NCBI RefSeq assembly: GCF_028737195.1
Contig: NZ_JAQZAJ010000004.1
Location: forward strand, 310,001 to 374,000
Origin: Pseudovibrio exalbescens
GTDB taxonomy: Bacteria; Pseudomonadota; Alphaproteobacteria; Rhizobiales; Stappiaceae
Direction of reading: 5' to 3'
Length of the DNA stretch: 64,000 nucleotides
How positions within the stretch are numbered: position 1 is the stretch's first letter; every line of letters starts with the position of its first letter. Under the pieces are notes generated by a model, which saw nothing but the letters and a program-made list of their open reading frames with translations, was not told where the DNA came from and searched no databases. Shown here piece after piece: positions 48,398 to 64,000 of this stretch. Made by a program: the position numbers and the translations under genes.

Positions 48398-49153
48398 ATG
48401 ACACTGGACGTCAACAAGCGTCGATATCAGGATGTTGCTGCTTCTTTGCGCGAAGAGCTTGCGCAGGGCAAGTATGCCATTGGTGATCGGCTTCGTACCG
48501 AACGGCAGATCTCAGAGGAACTCGGAGTGAGCCGCTCGCTGGTACGTGATGCAATGATCATGCTTGAAGTTGAAGGGCTTGTTGATGTCCGGAAGGGTTC
48601 CGGCATTTATGTCACTCGATTGCCGGGCGGTGAGGGTGATGCGGACAAGGCGGACGATATCGGGCCTTTCGAGTTGTTGCAGGCACGTCAGCTGTTGGAA
48701 AGCAACATCGCTGGTTTTGCAGCAGCCATGGTGACCAAAGCGGATATCATCCGGATGCGAGAGCTTCTTGATCAGGAACGCGCTGAGTTGGAAGCAGGTG
48801 GAGATGCCTACCACGCAGATGAGTTGTTTCATCGCCAAATTGCTATTGCCAGTCAGAACTCCGTTCTTGTGGCGTCCGTCGATAACCTTTGGGGCATGCG
48901 AAACCGGTCTCGCATGTGGGAGAGACTTCATGACCGGGTGTTTGACAGTGGCTATCGGCAGAAATGGTTGGAGGATCACCAGTCTATTCTGACAGCCCTG
49001 CAATGTCGTGATCCGCAGATGGCACGTCAGGCCATGTGGCAGCATCTGGAAAATGTTCGCCTGACCCTGCTGGAACTCTCGGATGTCGATGATCCTGCAT
49101 TTGATGCGTACCTGTTTGATGCTGACCCTCTGGCGGCAGTGCGCGAAGCTTAA
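48398..49153 (+). CDS. GntR-family (FadR subgroup) regulator, UxuR/ExuR-like
   Basis: A 251-residue regulator: winged helix-turn-helix at about residues 10-75 and an all-helical FCD effector domain at about 95-225. The N terminus (YQDVAASLREELAQGKYAIGD..LRTERQISEELGVSRSLVRDAMIMLEVEGLVDVRKGSGIYV) tracks E. coli ExuR and UxuR closely. It lies 13 bases after uidA and 40 before uxuA. Hexuronate or fructuronate is the likely inducer and the palindrome at 46226 the likely site. Confidence 0.88.
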   Translation: MTLDVNKRRYQDVAASLREELAQGKYAIGDRLRTERQISEELGVSRSLVRDAMIMLEVEGLVDVRKGSGIYVTRLPGGEGDADKADDIGPFELLQARQLLESNIAGFAAAMVTKADIIRMRELLDQERAELEAGGDAYHADELFHRQIAIASQNSVLVASVDNLWGMRNRSRMWERLHDRVFDSGYRQKWLEDHQSILTALQCRDPQMARQAMWQHLENVRLTLLELSDVDDPAFDAYLFDADPLAAVREA

Positions 49154-56921: not shown

Positions 56922-56951
56922 TGATCCTTGCGATGTTTTGACGCGTAGCGA
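56922..56951 (+). promoter_or_regulatory. Sigma-E (ChrR-type) promoter before the DUF6134 operon
   Basis: TGATCC (56922-56927), an 18-base spacer and TAGCGA (56946-56951). The -35 element is exact and the spacer identical to the promoter of the sigma gene at 63657. It ends 28 bases before the start codon at 56980. Confidence 0.65.
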
Positions 56952-56979
56952 GAACAACAAAAACAGAGGGAATGCAATC

Positions 56980-57618
56980 ATGCCCAGCTACAGATCTGCT
57001 CTGATAGGTGCTCTTTTTGCCGGTGCTTTAAGTGCTGAGGCGCTCGCGGCCCCATCAAACATCAACTTCACAGTCGAGCGCGACGGCAAGCCTATTGGAA
57101 CGTACACAACGCGGTTTTCTGGTTCCGAGGCTAATCTGAACGTGAGTGTCGACATGCGCTTGCGCGCCCGCTTCCTTGGTATCCCTGTTTATCGTTTCAA
57201 CTACAGTGCAAACGAACGCTGGAGTAACGGCACCTTGCAAGCGTTGGAAGTCGACCTGAACAACAATGGTGAAAAAAAGGACCTTGCTGGGAAGCGACAG
57301 GGCAACAAGTTCGTGTGGACTGCCAATGGGGAGAACCGGAGTGTATCAGGTAACATATTCCCATCCAACCACTGGAACCCCGGCGTGCTCCAGCAGCGGC
57401 GTGTACTCAATACTTTGACCGGTAAGATCAGTAACGTCAGCATTCGCAACCGTGGCACGGAGCAGCTTCAGTGCGAAAATCGAACCATCAATGCAACCCG
57501 TTATCAGTACACTGGGCAAATCGATACCGAGGCGTGGTACGATAGCCGAGGGCGCTGGGTCGGGCTTAGATTCAAGGCGCAAGACGGTTCTACTATCTTC
57601 TTCAGGTGTAAGGGCTAG
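56980..57618 (+). CDS. Exported DUF6134-like protein
   Basis: A 212-residue protein with a signal peptide (about 1-23, ending ALAA) and a beta-rich mature part that begins INFTVERDGKPIGTY, as seen in DUF6134-type proteins. Two Cys occur late in the protein (about residues 163 and 210) and may form a disulfide. The ATG at 56980 follows AGAGGG. First gene of a three-gene operon behind a sigma-E-type promoter. Its function is unknown; the neighbours suggest a lipid or cell-envelope role. Confidence 0.7.
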   Translation: MPSYRSALIGALFAGALSAEALAAPSNINFTVERDGKPIGTYTTRFSGSEANLNVSVDMRLRARFLGIPVYRFNYSANERWSNGTLQALEVDLNNNGEKKDLAGKRQGNKFVWTANGENRSVSGNIFPSNHWNPGVLQQRRVLNTLTGKISNVSIRNRGTEQLQCENRTINATRYQYTGQIDTEAWYDSRGRWVGLRFKAQDGSTIFFRCKG

Positions 57619-57620
57619 GA

Positions 57621-58379
57621 ATGGCTGAACGGGTTCTACCTTGGCAATCAGCCTGGGTGCTGGGAGCGAGCTCCGGCATTGGTGCGGCAGTTGCACAGCA
57701 ATTGGGACGTGCTGGCGTCAAAGTCGCGGTCAGCGCGCGGAGTGTAGCAGCTCTTGATCAGTTGGCGGAGGAAGTTCAAGGGCTCGTTTCTGTACCGGTA
57801 GATGTCACCGATGAAGATAGTGTCCGGGCTTCCTTCGACAAAGTGTGCCGCGGAGTTGGTGTGCCTGAGCTGATAATCTATTGCGCGGCGGTCTATACCC
57901 CCGGTGGATTGAGCGTTCTCACAGCCGGTGAGGCCATGCGACATATGGACGTGAACTACGGTGGCGCTGTTCGCACGCTGCAAGCCGTGCTTCCCGCGAT
58001 GACGGAGCGCGGCAGCGGTGCAATCGGCATCGTCTCATCCTTGACCGGGTACGCAGGCCTACCGAATGCGTCGGTCTATGGTCCGACAAAAGCTGCTCTA
58101 ATCAGCCTGTGTGAAACGTTGAAGCCCGAACTTGATGCGGTCGGCATTCAGCTGTCCGTTATAAACCCCGGTTTCGTTCGCACTCCGCTAACTGACAAGA
58201 ACGAGTTTGAGATGCCGTTCATCATAGAGCCTGATGAGGCCGGTTCGTACATCATCAAAGGCATGCGCAAAGGCACGTTTGACATTGCATTCCCATGGCA
58301 AATGGCGCTGATCCTGCGTGTGCTAAGGCACCTTCCATATTCACTTTACTTCCGCATGATGAGGAGACTACTGCGCTAA
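57621..58379 (+). CDS. Short-chain dehydrogenase/reductase
   Basis: A 252-residue NAD(P)-dependent oxidoreductase with the Rossmann glycine motif GASSGIG at about 15-21, the NAAV-like CAAV block, Ser near residue 140 and the catalytic pair Tyr153/Lys157 (VYGPTK). The end of the protein is basic and hydrophobic and may touch the membrane. It starts two bases after the DUF6134 gene and its stop overlaps the next start (TAATG). SDR genes are regular members of RpoE/ChrR-type lipid clusters. Confidence 0.88.
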   Translation: MAERVLPWQSAWVLGASSGIGAAVAQQLGRAGVKVAVSARSVAALDQLAEEVQGLVSVPVDVTDEDSVRASFDKVCRGVGVPELIIYCAAVYTPGGLSVLTAGEAMRHMDVNYGGAVRTLQAVLPAMTERGSGAIGIVSSLTGYAGLPNASVYGPTKAALISLCETLKPELDAVGIQLSVINPGFVRTPLTDKNEFEMPFIIEPDEAGSYIIKGMRKGTFDIAFPWQMALILRVLRHLPYSLYFRMMRRLLR

Positions 58380-58828
58380 TGGCACGCACTGAGGAACTAC
58401 AAAGTGCAGAGGAAACGGCTCTCGCATACGCAAAATTCTTCGAAACGGTCTCGCCAGAAAACATAGATGCGGTTCACGGAATGATCTCCGACGACGTTCA
58501 TTTCATTGACCCGTTCAATGATGTTCGTGGCCGGGACATGGTCGAAAAGATCCTGCATCGGATGTTCCATGATGTTCAACAACCGAAGTTTCAGATCCTC
58601 GATCTCGCATGGTCCAATGGGCTTTGCTTCATGCGTTGGGATTTCACGTGCCACCAGAAGCGCCTGGGTGATTGGGGTGTGCGCGGCATGACCGAGCTAC
58701 ACTTTGATGCGCAGGGGCGTATCTCTGCCCACTATGACTATTGGGATGCGAGCACCCACTTTTATACCCGCATCCCGGTAATCGGCAGCATGATACGTTG
58801 GGTCAAGAAACGCGCATCCATCAGTTAG
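58379..58828 (+). CDS. NTF2-like (SnoaL-type) protein of the sigma-E operon
   Basis: A 149-residue nuclear-transport-factor-2-like protein. Typical blocks are AYAKFFETVSPENI..DDVHFIDPFNDVRGRD near the start, and WDFTCHQKR and HYDYWDAS in the sheet. Start at 58379 is inside the previous stop codon (TAATG) and follows GAGGAG. A longer frame opened at 58295 overlaps the SDR gene and is rejected. The 3' end overlaps the convergent transporter gene by four bases. Confidence 0.82.
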   Translation: MARTEELQSAEETALAYAKFFETVSPENIDAVHGMISDDVHFIDPFNDVRGRDMVEKILHRMFHDVQQPKFQILDLAWSNGLCFMRWDFTCHQKRLGDWGVRGMTELHFDAQGRISAHYDYWDASTHFYTRIPVIGSMIRWVKKRASIS

Positions 58829-60180
58829 GCGCGTTCTCTGACTTCCAGCCGACGCTGTATGGACCGGTGCGCTTTCGTCGTGATCGGGAACCTCCACATC
58901 AGCCACAATACTCCCATTTTCAATGATACAGGCAACAATGCGTAGATCACAGCCAGTGCTGTCAACGCTTCTGGGGTGTTATCAGCGCCCGGCGTAAAGC
59001 CCAGAGCGCCAACAAGAGGTAGGCAAAAGCCCGCTGCCAGTGCCAGCGAAAGTTTCGCGACCAGCGTCCACGACGAATAGAGGATGCCCCGACGTTTGCG
59101 CTTTGTTTGTAGCTCGTCCCAATCTGTCACGTCGGCGAACAGGGAGGCGGGCAAAGCAAGGTCAGCTCCAAGGCACACCCCAGTAATCACGCAGATAATT
59201 CCGAACTCCAGCACTGCACCTTCTGGCAGAAATGGCACAGTGGTGAAGGTCACGGACACAATAATGATTGAGCATAGCCATAGCCTTGCTTTGTCAAAGT
59301 GCTTGCTTAGCACCAGCCAGATCGGCAGCCCTGCGATCGCGCAAAAGAAATAGAGAAAAATCAGCAGGTTTTTTTGCTGGTCCGTGGTCTTGAGCGCATC
59401 TGACAGGAAAAACGGAAACAAAACCGTCCCTGTTCCGTTCGCCAGGCCATTAAAGAACCACGCAGACAAAATGACCACGAACGGGGTGTTGCCTTTCAAA
59501 CTGGCGAAGAAACCACGCCATTGCGCCTCCGTCTGATGGACAGGAGCGGGCGGAACATGTTCATCCTCTTGGACCACTGCGAGCAGCATGGTTATTGTTA
59601 TAGCGCCGGTCACAATTGTGATGATGGCTATGGCAAAGAACTGATCCTCGGTTACAACACCCGCAGCCTTGAGAACGACTGGTAACGCGCTGGCAAGAAC
59701 AATGCCTGCCAGAGTTGCCGCTTCGCGAGCTGAGGCAAAGCGGGTTCGTTCATATGCATCCCGGGCAAGCTCCGCGCCCAGTGCATTGTAGGGGATGGAG
59801 AAAAACGTCCACCCCACATATAGCGCACATAGGAACAAGGCGAGTTGGAAGAGGGTGGTATCCGCAGACGGAAGCGATAAAACGATAAGCGCTGGTGCAG
59901 CAAAAAGACCGCCGAGCAACATCCATGGTTTTCTACGGCCCCAGCGTGTGGGGACTGTGTCCATCAGCCAGCCCACAGCAGGGTCTGTTGCCATGTCCAG
60001 CAAACGGGCAATGAGAAGGGCGAGGCCAATGCTCGCCAAACTCAATGTTGTTGCGGTCGCATAGTATTGCGGAAGAAGGACAAGCACCGGGAGGGTTGGC
60101 AGCGCGGTGGCCAACCCCGGCAATGCATAGAGGGTAAGATCTCGCCTAGAACGCACGGACCACCTTGTAGAAGCCGACAT
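58825..60180 (-). CDS. MFS transporter of the GPH (MelB-like) type
   Basis: A 451-residue membrane protein with about twelve helices and the sugar/cation symporter (GPH) layout. DPAVGWLMDTVPTRWGRRKPW in the first loop is the family's signature block. Start at the ATG 60180 is 35 bases inside the CFA synthase gene, so the two are coupled; the frame is open further upstream within that gene. In clusters with CFA synthase and sigma-E genes such transporters are proposed to act on a lipid or lipid precursor rather than a sugar; that is an inference. Confidence 0.8.
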   Translation of the reverse strand: MSASTRWSVRSRRDLTLYALPGLATALPTLPVLVLLPQYYATATTLSLASIGLALLIARLLDMATDPAVGWLMDTVPTRWGRRKPWMLLGGLFAAPALIVLSLPSADTTLFQLALFLCALYVGWTFFSIPYNALGAELARDAYERTRFASAREAATLAGIVLASALPVVLKAAGVVTEDQFFAIAIITIVTGAITITMLLAVVQEDEHVPPAPVHQTEAQWRGFFASLKGNTPFVVILSAWFFNGLANGTGTVLFPFFLSDALKTTDQQKNLLIFLYFFCAIAGLPIWLVLSKHFDKARLWLCSIIIVSVTFTTVPFLPEGAVLEFGIICVITGVCLGADLALPASLFADVTDWDELQTKRKRRGILYSSWTLVAKLSLALAAGFCLPLVGALGFTPGADNTPEALTALAVIYALLPVSLKMGVLWLMWRFPITTKAHRSIQRRLEVRERA

Positions 60181-61393
60181 CAATCGACTTCGCCTTGAAA
60201 CCGGCCTCGCAGTAGGCAAGGTAGTATTGCCACATCCGTTTGAAGCGCTCATCGAAATCCATTGAGGAAATACGAGGCCAAGCCGCCATGAAGCTTTCGT
60301 TCCATTTGGCGAGGGTACGGGCATAGTCGTGCCCAAAATACTCCTCATGGACCAATTTCAGGCCACATCGGCTGATGATGTCCTTCAGGATCGATGGGCT
60401 GGGAAGCATGCCTCCTGGGAAAATGTACTTCTGGATGAAGTCAACGCTCTTGCTGTACTGCTCGTAGCGGGCATCTTCGATTACGATCGCCTGAATGACC
60501 GCCGAACCTTTTTCGGTGAGACGATCGCGGATGATGGAACAGTAGTGGTCCCAGTTGTCTTTTCCGACCGCCTCAATCATCTCGATCGAAACGATGTGGT
60601 CATAGCTTCCTTCGGTGTCTCGGTAGTCCCGAAGCTCAAACTTCGCATTGTCAGAAAACCCCTTAGACAGGCTTCGCTGCCGGGCGTAATTCAGCTGCTC
60701 ATTTGAAAGCGTTATACCGTGAACGTGAGCTCCACGCTGCGCTGCAGTTTCGGCAAAGCCACCCCAACCGCAACCAATCTCAAGAATGCGATGCCCCGTC
60801 GTTGCACCTGCCAGATCCAGAACCCGGTCGTTTTTTTGTCTCTGGGCAACTTCAAGCGGCATCTGTCCATCGTAGTTGTAGGCAGAGGAGTAGGTCATGC
60901 TCGGATCCAGCCATTGTTCATAAAAGGCATTTCCGAGGTCATAGTGGAACGCGATGTTTCGCTTGCTGCCGCGCTTTGTGTTGGAGTTCATCCAATGCAT
61001 GATGCGGTTGAGCCATCGCGTGGTGGTTCCCTTTAAGTGGATGCCACGGAAGCTCTTGGTGTTGATCAGGAAGAGCTCAAATAGGTCTGTCAGGTCAGAG
61101 CAGCTCCAATCCCCTTCCATATAGCATTCAGCCAACGCAAGGTGCCCACCAAGGGCAAGGCGTCGGAAAGTACGCTCGTTGTGAATGCGGACCTCAACAC
61201 TGGGAGCATTGGTGCTCTTCACACCAAACTCGGCGCGGTTTCCTTCAGGAAAAACGAGTGTGAGGTGGCCTCGCTCCAGATGCCGCAGCACTGCAACGAT
61301 CATCCGACGCCAGAGGTTCATTGTTGGGAGGCGGCCGTGAGATTTCTTTGTTTCAGCGGAGGTTACGGCGACACGGTTCTCATCAATGCTCAT
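60146..61393 (-). CDS. Cyclopropane-fatty-acyl-phospholipid synthase family methyltransferase
   Basis: A 415-residue SAM-dependent enzyme that modifies unsaturated acyl chains of membrane lipids by methylene or methyl transfer. SAM motif I is in ILEIGCGWGGFAE (about residue 196-208), the acyl/lipid-facing N-terminal domain precedes it, and SIEMIEAVG lies in the catalytic half. CFA-like proteins of this group in Rhodobacter belong to the RpoE/ChrR regulon. Whether it makes cyclopropane or another branched product cannot be told. Its start overlaps the DUF1365 stop by four bases. Confidence 0.87.
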   Translation of the reverse strand: MSIDENRVAVTSAETKKSHGRLPTMNLWRRMIVAVLRHLERGHLTLVFPEGNRAEFGVKSTNAPSVEVRIHNERTFRRLALGGHLALAECYMEGDWSCSDLTDLFELFLINTKSFRGIHLKGTTTRWLNRIMHWMNSNTKRGSKRNIAFHYDLGNAFYEQWLDPSMTYSSAYNYDGQMPLEVAQRQKNDRVLDLAGATTGHRILEIGCGWGGFAETAAQRGAHVHGITLSNEQLNYARQRSLSKGFSDNAKFELRDYRDTEGSYDHIVSIEMIEAVGKDNWDHYCSIIRDRLTEKGSAVIQAIVIEDARYEQYSKSVDFIQKYIFPGGMLPSPSILKDIISRCGLKLVHEEYFGHDYARTLAKWNESFMAAWPRISSMDFDERFKRMWQYYLAYCEAGFKAKSIDVGFYKVVRAF

Positions 61394-62223
61394 TGGACTT
61401 CCTTGCCGTATGTTACTGTTTCTGATGACATTTTAGTTACAAGACGAGCCGGCGGTTCGGGCCTTGGCTGAAGTTTGGCTCCCTTTGCCCACATCTTGAG
61501 AGCCTCCCAATGAATGCCAGCCAGTATTTTGAAGCCACCCTGAAAATATCGTAGGGCGAACCATAGCAGTTTGCCTGACGTCAGCTTTTGCCTCTGACCT
61601 CTGAAGGCAGCTGTCAGCATGGGACCGTTTCTGTCGGTCTGACGGATTACCACGGAAACGCTTTCATCTGGTTTGCGCACCTTGAAGTGGTAGGTGCACT
61701 CCATATGAATGAAAGGTGATACATAGAAGTTCTTGTCGCAGGAGTGGTCGTAGGCCACCTGATCCTGCTCCACCTCGGTGAGGTAGTGATGCCACTCTCC
61801 GAAGGTGTTGCGGACTTGATACAAAATGGCTCGCAACTTTCCATCGACGTCGTGACAATAGAAGATCGATAGCGGATTGAAGGCATGGCCAAGGAAGCGC
61901 GGATAGGCGAGCAGATCAATCCGGCCGGCCTGGAAATGAAGGCCGTTTTCGATCAGGAGTTTCTCAACGAAGCCACGTATCGACGCCTCTCCAGCCTCCA
62001 TGTGATCGCGCTCGCAGAAGCTGAAAAGGTTCCACCTGTTGACCGAAAAAAGACGGCTTACCTGATTTAGCTCCTCCAGGCGGTCTACATCTGTAAGTAG
62101 AGAGAATACTTTGTATTTCAGGCTATGGTTCAGGTCTTGGTGACGGGTATGCACGACATCACCCAGATAGAAAGCTGCTGGCTCTGTTGTCGGAGCAGCT
62201 GCTGCCGCTGTGAAAGCTGCCAT
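61390..62223 (-). CDS. DUF1365 protein
   Basis: A 277-residue protein of the DUF1365 family, regularly encoded next to CFA synthase and an NAD/FAD-binding amine-oxidase-like protein. The diagnostic blocks are FYLGDVVHTRH at the N terminus, HFQAGRIDLLAYPRFLGHAF..NPLSIFYCHD in the middle (shown in parts), and YVSPFIHMECTYHF. No transmembrane segment of note. Function unknown; membrane-lipid modification is inferred from its constant neighbours. Four-base overlap with CFA synthase and five bases after the flavoprotein gene. Confidence 0.87.
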   Translation of the reverse strand: MAAFTAAAAAPTTEPAAFYLGDVVHTRHQDLNHSLKYKVFSLLTDVDRLEELNQVSRLFSVNRWNLFSFCERDHMEAGEASIRGFVEKLLIENGLHFQAGRIDLLAYPRFLGHAFNPLSIFYCHDVDGKLRAILYQVRNTFGEWHHYLTEVEQDQVAYDHSCDKNFYVSPFIHMECTYHFKVRKPDESVSVVIRQTDRNGPMLTAAFRGQRQKLTSGKLLWFALRYFQGGFKILAGIHWEALKMWAKGAKLQPRPEPPARLVTKMSSETVTYGKEVQ

Positions 62224-62228
62224 TGCTT

Positions 62229-63572
62229 CTACTCCGCCGCCTGCCGATCCGTTGCAGATATCCCTGCTTGCACCAGTGGGATGCGGCCAGACTCGTTTTC
62301 AACATTCCACGGACGGCGTACGTTCCCCAACGCCTCAGCCACAGCCAATCCTGACTGCAACCCGTCTTCGTGGAACCCATGTCCAAAATAAGCGCCGCAG
62401 AACCATGTGCGGTTGTGGCCCTGCAGTTCCCAAAGGCTAGATTGAGCTTTGAGCGCGTTGCTGTCAAACACGGGGTGGCTGTAAACCATGCTGCGCAAGA
62501 TAGTGCCTTCAGCGGGCTGGTGAGTAGGGTTCAGCGTAACGAAAAGATCCTTGCTCACGTTTAGGTTCTGCAACCGATTCATCCAGTAGGTAACGCAGAG
62601 GCTGGTCTCGCCTTCCTCCTCGGTCTTGAGGTAGTTCCAGCTTGCCCAAGCTTTGCGTGTTTTCGGCATCAGGCTCTTATCAGTGTGCAGTAGCGCAATA
62701 TTCTTCTGGTAGTGGATCGAGCCCAAAAGCGCGCGTTCTTGGTCACTGGCGCCAAGGCTTCCGCTTTCGAGGATGCGAAGGGCCTGGTCTGAATGCGCCG
62801 CTATGACAACATGATCATAGCGCTGGCTGTCCCCGTTGCGGTCAACGATCTCAACGAAACCTGGCAATCTGTTCAGCTGAGTGATTGCCGTGTTCAGTTC
62901 GATGGAGCCGGAAATTTCTTCGGCAATCTTTGAGATGTAATTTTTCGAGCCTCCGGCTACCGTTCGCCACTTCGGGCGATCGCGGAACTGGATCAATCCA
63001 TGGTTTTGACAAAAACCTATGAAGCTTTGAAACGGGAACGCCATCATCCGTTCCGCTGGCATGGACCAAATGGCCGCCCCCATTGGAATGAGATGATCAT
63101 GGATAAACCCTTCGGAGTAGCGCTGCTCATTCAAATAAGACCGTAGGGTGTAGTCTGGCGGCAGCCTTTCTGCATCCGCTGCTGCGTTGTCATAGAAGCG
63201 TTTGATGTCTTTCAACATGCTCCAGAAACGGAGGCTGAAGAGGTTTTTCCGTTGCGCAAACAGTCCATTAAAACCGCAGCCAGAATACTCATAGGCGCCT
63301 TGCTGTGCGGAAATAGCGAAGGACATGTCAGAAGCGTCTGTTGCTACCCCCATGTGGTCGAAGAAGGCTGTTAGGTTGGGGTAGGTCCGTTCATTATAAA
63401 CTATGAACCCAGTATCGACGTCCACTCTCTCGCCATCGACCGCCACACTTTGCGTATTGGAGTGCCCGCCTAAACGGTCATCCTTCTCGTAAAGAGTGAC
63501 GTGATGGGCTTTGGAGAGTAGCCACGCTGCTGATAGACCCGAAATACCAGACCCGATAACCGCAATCTTCAT
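62229..63572 (-). CDS. FAD-dependent amine-oxidase-like flavoprotein
   Basis: A 447-residue flavoprotein with the dinucleotide-binding motif GSGISGLSAAWLL at residues 7-19 and the second FAD contact RLGGHSNT at about 37-44. It belongs to the NAD/FAD-binding group related to carotenoid desaturases and amine oxidases. It heads the minus-strand operon with DUF1365, CFA synthase and the MFS gene. A TGATCC-type promoter lies 31 bases before the start. A desaturase or lipid oxidase role is likely but unproven. Confidence 0.87.
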   Translation of the reverse strand: MKIAVIGSGISGLSAAWLLSKAHHVTLYEKDDRLGGHSNTQSVAVDGERVDVDTGFIVYNERTYPNLTAFFDHMGVATDASDMSFAISAQQGAYEYSGCGFNGLFAQRKNLFSLRFWSMLKDIKRFYDNAAADAERLPPDYTLRSYLNEQRYSEGFIHDHLIPMGAAIWSMPAERMMAFPFQSFIGFCQNHGLIQFRDRPKWRTVAGGSKNYISKIAEEISGSIELNTAITQLNRLPGFVEIVDRNGDSQRYDHVVIAAHSDQALRILESGSLGASDQERALLGSIHYQKNIALLHTDKSLMPKTRKAWASWNYLKTEEEGETSLCVTYWMNRLQNLNVSKDLFVTLNPTHQPAEGTILRSMVYSHPVFDSNALKAQSSLWELQGHNRTWFCGAYFGHGFHEDGLQSGLAVAEALGNVRRPWNVENESGRIPLVQAGISATDRQAAE

Positions 63573-63602
63573 TAAGACTTGTTCCCTGATTTCAATCTGT
63601 TA

Positions 63603-63632
63603 TTCGTATGTGGGTTAACGCGTATTGGATCA
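63603..63632 (-). promoter_or_regulatory. Sigma-E-type promoter of the flavoprotein operon
   Basis: On the minus strand: TGATCC (63632-63627), 18-base spacer, TACGAA (63608-63603). The -35 element and spacer equal those of the divergent sigma-gene promoter; the -10 element differs in the middle bases. Confidence 0.6.
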
Positions 63633-63656
63633 CATGAACGCTTCAGTCTTGTTTAG

Positions 63657-63686
63657 TGATCCAGTGGGCTCTGTCACACGTAAGTA
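63657..63686 (+). promoter_or_regulatory. Autoregulatory sigma-E promoter
   Basis: TGATCC (63657-63662), 18-base spacer and TAAGTA (63681-63686). This agrees with the RpoE promoter of Rhodobacter sphaeroides (TGATCC - N18 - TAAG) as I recall it. It reads into the ECF sigma gene below, so the sigma factor most likely drives its own gene. Confidence 0.8.
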
Positions 63687-63766
63687 AAAAGTGTCGAGCA
63701 TCATAGGATGAGTCTGTGCCCTATCAACAACGGGAAATTGTTGCGTCACCCAGCGGGGGGACTTCT

Positions 63767-64000
63767 GTGCCGCCCAACAGGTTAAGCCAATTGCTCGCAA
63801 CGATGAGTGCGACGCAAGATCGGGGTTCGTTTCGCGAGCTGTATGACTATTTCGCCCCACGGTTGAAGCAGTTTTACATGCGTTCCGGAACTGATGAAGC
63901 GATGGCTGAGGAAATGGTTCAAGAGACGTTTGTGCTTGTTTGGCGCAAATCTCACCTCTACGATCCATCCCGGTCCGCTGCATCTACCTGGATCTTCACG
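63767..64000 (+). CDS. rpoE: ECF sigma factor RpoE (ChrR-type), truncated by window end
   Basis: The frame runs from 63767 off the right edge, giving 78 residues. It is the first part of an ECF sigma factor: after LLATMSATQDRGSFRELYDYFAPRLKQFYMRSG, the sigma-2 region follows with EEMVQETFVLVW, the core -10-recognition and core-binding helix, then DPSRSAASTWIFT. The start is a GTG behind GGGGGG; GTG 63716 or ATG 63803 are alternatives, but an ATG at 63803 would cut off a conserved N-terminal helix. It is autoregulated by a TGATCC-type promoter. The anti-sigma gene chrR is expected directly after the window. Confidence 0.82.
   Translation, partial: MPPNRLSQLLATMSATQDRGSFRELYDYFAPRLKQFYMRSGTDEAMAEEMVQETFVLVWRKSHLYDPSRSAASTWIFT

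Follow-up and report, generated by a model that had tools for sequence, protein, structure and literature searches.

We analysed a stretch of 64,000 nucleotides (the window, G000:C21:310001-374000) from a 4.39 Mb Pseudovibrio genome, to which all genome-wide counts below refer. From position 56922 onward, the window carries an RpoE-like sigma gene of the extracytoplasmic function (ECF) class, an operon of furan fatty acid genes and an operon headed by a gene of the DUF6134 family. Together, these genes probably represent the core of an RpoE-ChrR (ECF11) regulon that responds to singlet oxygen and organic peroxides and includes DUF6134 as an acyl-lipid binder, a reading to which we assign a probability of about 0.7. 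Both the regulator and the enzymes, which resemble those that make protective furan fatty acids, belong to types already described. The new elements are the DUF6134 protein, which is probably exported and has a predicted fold of a lipid-binding type, and a pattern of residues in the homologue of cyclopropane fatty acid (CFA) synthase. The promoters, the synteny, the family identities, the loss of CFA residues and the predicted fold come from the sequence, while singlet-oxygen activation, ChrR proteolysis and the furan chemistry are taken from Rhodobacter sphaeroides. In this marine bacterium, DUF6134 may add a previously undescribed lipid-handling component to the stress response.

Promoters and regulator of the cluster

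The original prediction placed the pattern TGATCC-N18-TAnnnA at 56922 on the plus strand, 63632 on the minus strand and 63657 on the plus strand, and the places, the strands and the exact 18 bases before TA are all correct. As it also claimed, the three sites precede the operon of DUF6134, a short-chain dehydrogenase/reductase (SDR) and an NTF2-like protein, the ufaD-ufaO-CFA-MFS operon, and the sigma gene, respectively. It corresponds to the ECF11 (RpoE-ChrR) promoter, for which TGATCC-N16-CGTA is the better notation. The sites and the regulatory genes are listed below, with positions past the window given in locus L022.

56922..56951, plus strand: ECF11-type promoter of the DUF6134 operon (TGATCC at 56922-56927, CGTA at 56944-56947)
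63603..63632, minus strand: ECF11-type promoter of the ufaD-ufaO-ufaM-MFS operon (-10 element CATA)
63657..63686, plus strand: ECF11-type promoter of rpoE-chrR (CGTA at 63679-63682)
63716..64000, plus strand, continuing beyond the window to L022:10322: RpoE-like ECF sigma gene (PF04542)
L022:10319-10978, past the window end: chrR, with a 4-base overlap with the sigma gene end (TIGR02451, 200.5 bits)

A chrR gene had been expected after the sigma gene and is indeed present just past the window, with a TIGR02451 score to be compared with a cut-off of 124.5 bits. Its product matches the ChrR cupin profile above the cut-off of that profile and zf-HC2 slightly below (E 6e-4). The three promoters and the position of chrR support the predicted RpoE-ChrR (ECF11) regulon, and the proposed regulation of the cluster is well supported at the level of sequence.

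That the three sites are chance matches is scarcely credible. The pattern does occur inside genes too, and two further matches in the window, at 61760 (plus strand) inside ufaO and at 48949 (minus strand) inside open reading frames (ORFs), are probably fortuitous. However, the five matches in 64 kb compare with 0.14 expected, and five were reached in none of 100 shuffles. Chance is, moreover, already contradicted by the relatives, most of which have the motif at the same positions and not before the operon-internal genes. These relatives are 69 DUF6134 loci, hereafter the named sample, which a search with a single short, conserved peptide pattern brought up and which are therefore biased to close relatives; their genera include Thalassospira, Sneathiella, Kordiimonas, Dongia, Nitrincola, Marinobacterium and Motiliproteus. 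In these loci, 300 bases upstream and 90 bases downstream of the longest ORF start were searched for a strict motif, TGATC[CT]-N15-17-CGTA, the CGTA form having been picked after matches in other loci were seen. Rows shorter than 250 bases were excluded and only the first copy of each gene per locus was taken, so that the SDR row contains a few unrelated SDRs. The strict motif stands before DUF6134 in 39 of 68 loci, before ufaD in 48 of 57 and before the sigma gene in 45 of 55, compared with 0/58 for CFA, 0/51 for MFS, 0/55 for NTF2, 0/57 for ufaO, 2/65 for SDR and 3/56 for chrR. With the looser form that requires only TA and is nearer to the originally described pattern, the first three counts become 39, 50 and 46, and the other six 1, 0, 2, 1, 4 and 4, respectively; rows of such size yield about 1.0 to 2.1 matches after single-base shuffling. 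Among the 16 gammaproteobacterial loci inspected, the strict motif was found before DUF6134 in none, and TGAACC-N16/17-CGTA stands before the gene in 10 of these 16, a count that has no chance control.

The genome scan suggested with the original prediction gave 21 matches to TGATCC-N18-TAnnnA versus 4 for the reversed control, but these matches cannot by themselves be taken as a list of the regulon, since 14 of the 16 matches outside the window lie within a six-frame ORF of at least 70 amino acids (a lenient test). The exact N16 spacing with CGTA is found at 7 sites genome-wide, 4 of them within 11.5 kb at the cluster.

Some sites elsewhere in the genome stand beside recognisable genes. The second-best rpoH match (L027, G000:C24:66463-67266), which is below the family cut-off, has TGAACC-N16-CGTAACA upstream, as would be expected if it is rpoHII under the same sigma factor. 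At L146 (G000:C21:75928), an ECF11-type site lies beside a gene that by eye encodes a fasciclin domain, but is oriented away from it, toward a 185-residue ORF; in R. sphaeroides, a fasciclin gene is among those with raised expression. TGATCC-N18-TAnnnA also lies just upstream of an ORF that by eye resembles uroporphyrinogen decarboxylase (L005, G000:C11:247901) and of a 487-residue ORF (L001, G000:C1:593544).

The probable furan fatty acid operon

Profile matches to the window proteins gave the gene content that had been described for both operons. The suggested link to furan fatty acid genes also stands, as the minus-strand operon matches the published pathway of UfaD, UfaO (a DUF1365 protein) and a UfaM-type methyltransferase.

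62229..63572, minus strand: UfaD-type flavoprotein desaturase (PF01593, E 4e-22)
61390..62223, minus strand: UfaO homologue, DUF1365 (PF07103, E 1e-75)
60146..61393, minus strand: UfaM-type acyl methyltransferase of the CFA/CMAS family (PF02353, E 1e-82)
58825..60180, minus strand: GPH/MFS_2 family transporter (PF13347, E 3e-74; start codon picked by eye)

The name UfaD was given by position, because ufaD of R. sphaeroides leads the ufaO operon that adjoins rpoE-chrR. The transporter scores 180.9 bits with TIGR00792, which is under the cut-off of that model.

The third protein had been called a CFA synthase. When it is aligned to 6bqc, which we take to be E. coli Cfa, S170 and Q301 replace the Cys and the His of the bicarbonate site, a site presumably made in the E. 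coli enzyme by C139, E239, H266 and Y317. The same comparison was made for 58 cluster proteins, those of the window and of 57 other loci, excluding L118, which was too short, and the remote protein of L067. The Cys is replaced by Ser in 43 and by Ala in 15, and the His by Gln in all 58, while the Glu is found in 58 and the Tyr in 57, with one gap. A second CFA protein of the Pseudovibrio genome retains both Cys and His. Two canonical bicarbonate-site residues are thus replaced in 58 of 58 cluster proteins, and the window protein, of the CFA/CMAS family, is best read, from this comparison with E. coli Cfa, as a putative UfaM. If proven UfaM enzymes share the pattern, UfaM could be told apart from cyclopropane synthases, and 'cfa' labels in stress clusters could be corrected.

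According to PMC7380195, UfaM, UfaD and UfaO, the last a DUF1365 protein, suffice for the 9M5 furan acid in R. sphaeroides, and the furan oxygen derives from O2. In Halomonas, ufaM, ufaD and ufaO adjoin, and ufaM expressed in E. coli yields 11-methyloctadec-12-enoate, with cyclic fatty acids detected too (PMC12089945). Because of these published cases and of the residue losses in the CFA homologue, the minus-strand operon would be expected to yield furan lipids and not cyclopropanes.

DUF6134, its neighbours and its possible role

The plus-strand operon comprises three genes.

56980..57618, plus strand: DUF6134 protein, 212 amino acids, with an N-terminal signal peptide by eye and a predicted β-barrel
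57621..58379, plus strand: SDR oxidoreductase, 252 amino acids (PF00106, E 4e-38), with N112, S140, Y153 and K157 intact
58379..58828, plus strand: NTF2/SnoaL-like protein, 149 amino acids (PF12680, E 2e-12)

The original prediction regarded DUF6134 as an exported, undescribed part, which is supported: the signal peptide seen by eye indicates that it is probably exported, and no paper on DUF6134 was found in a limited full-text literature search. Its best named sequence match is from P. exalbescens, with 85% identity, and it has no significant sequence similarity to solved chains. The predicted structure is a β-barrel (predicted local distance difference test score, pLDDT, of 95) that matches the spiral β-barrel fold of EipB most closely, LolA and RseB being weaker matches. 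DUF1849, the family of EipB, was matched neither by the window protein nor by any of the 22 proteins in alignment A1, although the library content for DUF1849 was unchecked. We infer that DUF6134 may be a periplasmic acyl-lipid binding or carrier protein. If it binds acyl lipids, the singlet-oxygen response would gain a periplasmic arm, and the protein would be a possible means by which fatty acids, whether modified or newly taken up, get across the periplasm. A broader idea, which we put forward only tentatively, is that the family consists of dedicated periplasmic acyl-lipid carriers, which in this cluster shuttle furan-bearing or oxidised acyl lipids from one membrane to the other under singlet-oxygen stress and in a FadL-linked form receive fatty acids that come in through the outer membrane. 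We know of no earlier example of such a shared periplasmic fatty-acid carrier.

The neighbourhoods in the named sample were counted from matches at E 1e-5 within 10 kb, with contig ends shortening some loci. Of the 69 loci, SDR is found in 65 (63 at 35% identity or more), CFA in 59, UfaD and UfaO in 57 each, ChrR in 56, NTF2 and the sigma gene in 55 each, and MFS in 52. In a less biased, phylum-wide draw of 398 genomes, our own included, DUF6134 is present in 26, and 23 of these have DUF1365, compared with 153 of 398 overall (Fisher p 7e-8, kinship ignored; both counts are taken as the same draw). The two genes lie within 10 kb of each other in 14 of the 23 genomes that have both. ChrR scores over its cut-off in 16 of the 26 DUF6134 genomes and in 15 of 54 others (Fisher p 0.006); the counts are 19 and 15 at E 1e-30 (p 2e-4) and 21 and 22 at E 1e-3 (p 8e-4). 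The 54 comparison genomes were taken by handle number and several are less complete, which favours our reading.

Outside the named sample, in 18 of 32 further DUF6134 loci a gene of the cluster type lies no more than about 1.5 kb away. A sample seeded with a FadL-linked DUF6134, made up of the 30 best loci from a longer list, overlaps with those already described: L158, L160 and L174 repeat L062, L048 and L035, so that both of its FadL cases are repeats. Its neighbours are SDR in 9 of 30, NTF2 in 5, ChrR in 4, photolyase-type genes in 4 and FadL in 2. The background, taken from the initial 3.55 kb in each of 53 named loci, is SDR in 2, sigma in 1 and ChrR in 2, the sigma and ChrR genes being the clusters' own. 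DUF6134 is directly upstream of FadL in 4 of 101 loci, L060, L061 and L062 from one genus and L048 from another family; the FadL of L060 was confirmed as PF03349. At L051, DUF6134 stands between Lipocalin_2 and DUF1295.

In the two other plus-strand genes, residues are strictly conserved. The N, S, Y and K of the SDR, which we take to be catalytic, are found in 65 of 65 aligned proteins, and D44-P45, W87 and H118-x-D120-x-W122-D123 of the NTF2-like protein in 55 of 55, the window included in both. The NTF2-like protein had also been predicted as an undescribed part, which does not hold in full: both it and the SDR are in print as co-regulated members of such a cluster in Aeromonas, with no known function (PMC10012899). 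A lipoprotein-like ORF was seen by eye between NTF2 and MFS in 26 of the 47 loci that have both, and the two that were checked are DUF3833. The Pseudovibrio loci have no room for DUF3833 there, and none was found in the genome by a search that had no positive control.

Several observations weigh against the overall reading. The LolA and RseB fold matches score close to what the search tool labels as common, and sharing a fold is no proof of lipid binding. The ufaD promoter of the window departs from the consensus, having CATA in place of the -10 CGTA of its relatives; it is the weakest of the three sites, and CATA is also found in P. exalbescens. DUF6134 is present in 3 of 16 Pseudovibrio genomes and DUF1365 in 11, so that DUF6134 is not needed for the core; this sporadic presence within the genus says that it would be an accessory part. 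No tested cluster gene lies within about 1.5 kb in 14 of the 32 further loci (4 have FadL) and in 17 of the 30 FadL-seeded loci (2 have FadL). These 14 of 32 loci, and a broader search in which DUF6134 turned up in 144 of 385 genomes from the class, indicate that the family extends well beyond the cluster. Finally, deletions of the SDR, the lipoprotein and the symporter left the fatty acid profile of R. sphaeroides unchanged, RSP1087 (annotated as an SDR), RSP1088 and RSP1089 (a GPH symporter) being dispensable for its furan fatty acid (PMC7380195). The prediction that both operons form one pathway is hence not established.

Other roles for DUF6134 were weighed as well. It might be an EipB-like envelope-integrity or chaperone protein that is made under the stress sigma factor to repair the envelope in general and does not itself contact furan fatty acids; we consider this rather unlikely, as the repeated close linkage to ufaO and ufaD, and elsewhere to FadL and lipocalin, points to acyl lipids. 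It is quite improbable that DUF6134 is a periplasmic lipid sensor of the RseB/MucB kind, tuning the sigma factor via ChrR proteolysis by DegS/RseP-type proteases. The DUF6134 gene is itself a likely sigma target and, to our knowledge, ChrR is soluble with no periplasmic part. Activation in R. sphaeroides needs the RSP_1090-1091 genes and proteases, and the accessible account mentions no such sensor. The end product may also differ from the 9M5 furan acid, if SDR and NTF2 act further on an oxidised acyl chain by reduction, isomerisation or dehydration. Their invariant residues, including the acidic and His residues of NTF2, their presence in 65 and 55 of 69 loci and their joint regulation with the cluster in Aeromonas (PMC10012899) would fit such a product, which we regard as possible but doubtful given that UfaM, UfaD and UfaO are enough for the 9M5 acid in R. 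sphaeroides.

Proposed mechanism and comparison with known systems

In the reading that we prefer, an RpoE-ChrR regulon with a furan operon and an acyl-lipid binder, stress would lead to loss of ChrR by analogy with R. sphaeroides, and the freed sigma factor would read the TGATCC-N16-CGTA promoters. The putative targets are rpoE-chrR, ufaD-ufaO-ufaM-transporter, DUF6134-SDR-NTF2 and, outside the window, the photolyase gene and a second SDR gene. The ufaD-ufaO-ufaM operon would methylate, desaturate and oxygenate the cis-vaccenoyl chains of phospholipids, giving furan fatty acids. The most likely role of DUF6134, as an EipB/LolA/RseB-like barrel, would be to bind or carry a furan-bearing or oxidised acyl lipid in the periplasm, and SDR and NTF2 are probably cytoplasmic enzymes that act on an oxidised lipid product. 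In this scheme we infer the induction, the chemistry in Pseudovibrio, the export and ligand of DUF6134 and the substrate of SDR and NTF2. The genes beyond chrR are as follows.

L022:11197-12720: photolyase, with its own TGATCT-N16-CGTA site (window-equivalent position 65142)
L022:12725-14413: photolyase-related DPRP gene
L022:14434-15147: second SDR, with its own TGATCT-N16-CGTA site (window-equivalent position 68371)
L022:16074-17093: SLAC1-type channel

DUF6134 differs from EipB (DUF1849) of Brucella, to which it has 10% identity, also in its gene neighbourhood, and its matches to the lipid-binding folds of LolA/LolB, RseB/MucB, LprG and LmcA are mostly weak. An Aeromonas operon, NTF2-SDR-FAD oxidoreductase-DUF1365-cfa-DUF2878, is co-regulated and resembles ours in the types of its SDR, NTF2, UfaD, UfaO and CFA-like genes. 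Unlike in Pseudovibrio, DUF6134 is not listed in the available part of that report (PMC10012899), the CFA-like gene is named cfa and the ChrR gene given there is at a separate genomic location. The Halomonas cluster has three consecutive furan genes like ours, but DUF6134 and a sigma gene go unmentioned in what is accessible of PMC12089945. The RpoE-ChrR core of R. sphaeroides (RSP1092-1093, RSP1091-1087 and RSP2143-2144) shares with Pseudovibrio the pair of sigma and anti-sigma factors, the photolyase, the promoter type and a ufaD-ufaO operon with a GPH transporter that adjoins rpoE-chrR. However, ufaM, which is far from ufaD in R. sphaeroides, is inside the ufaD operon in Pseudovibrio, where the DUF3833 lipoprotein between NTF2 and MFS is missing and the DUF6134-SDR-NTF2 operon has been added.

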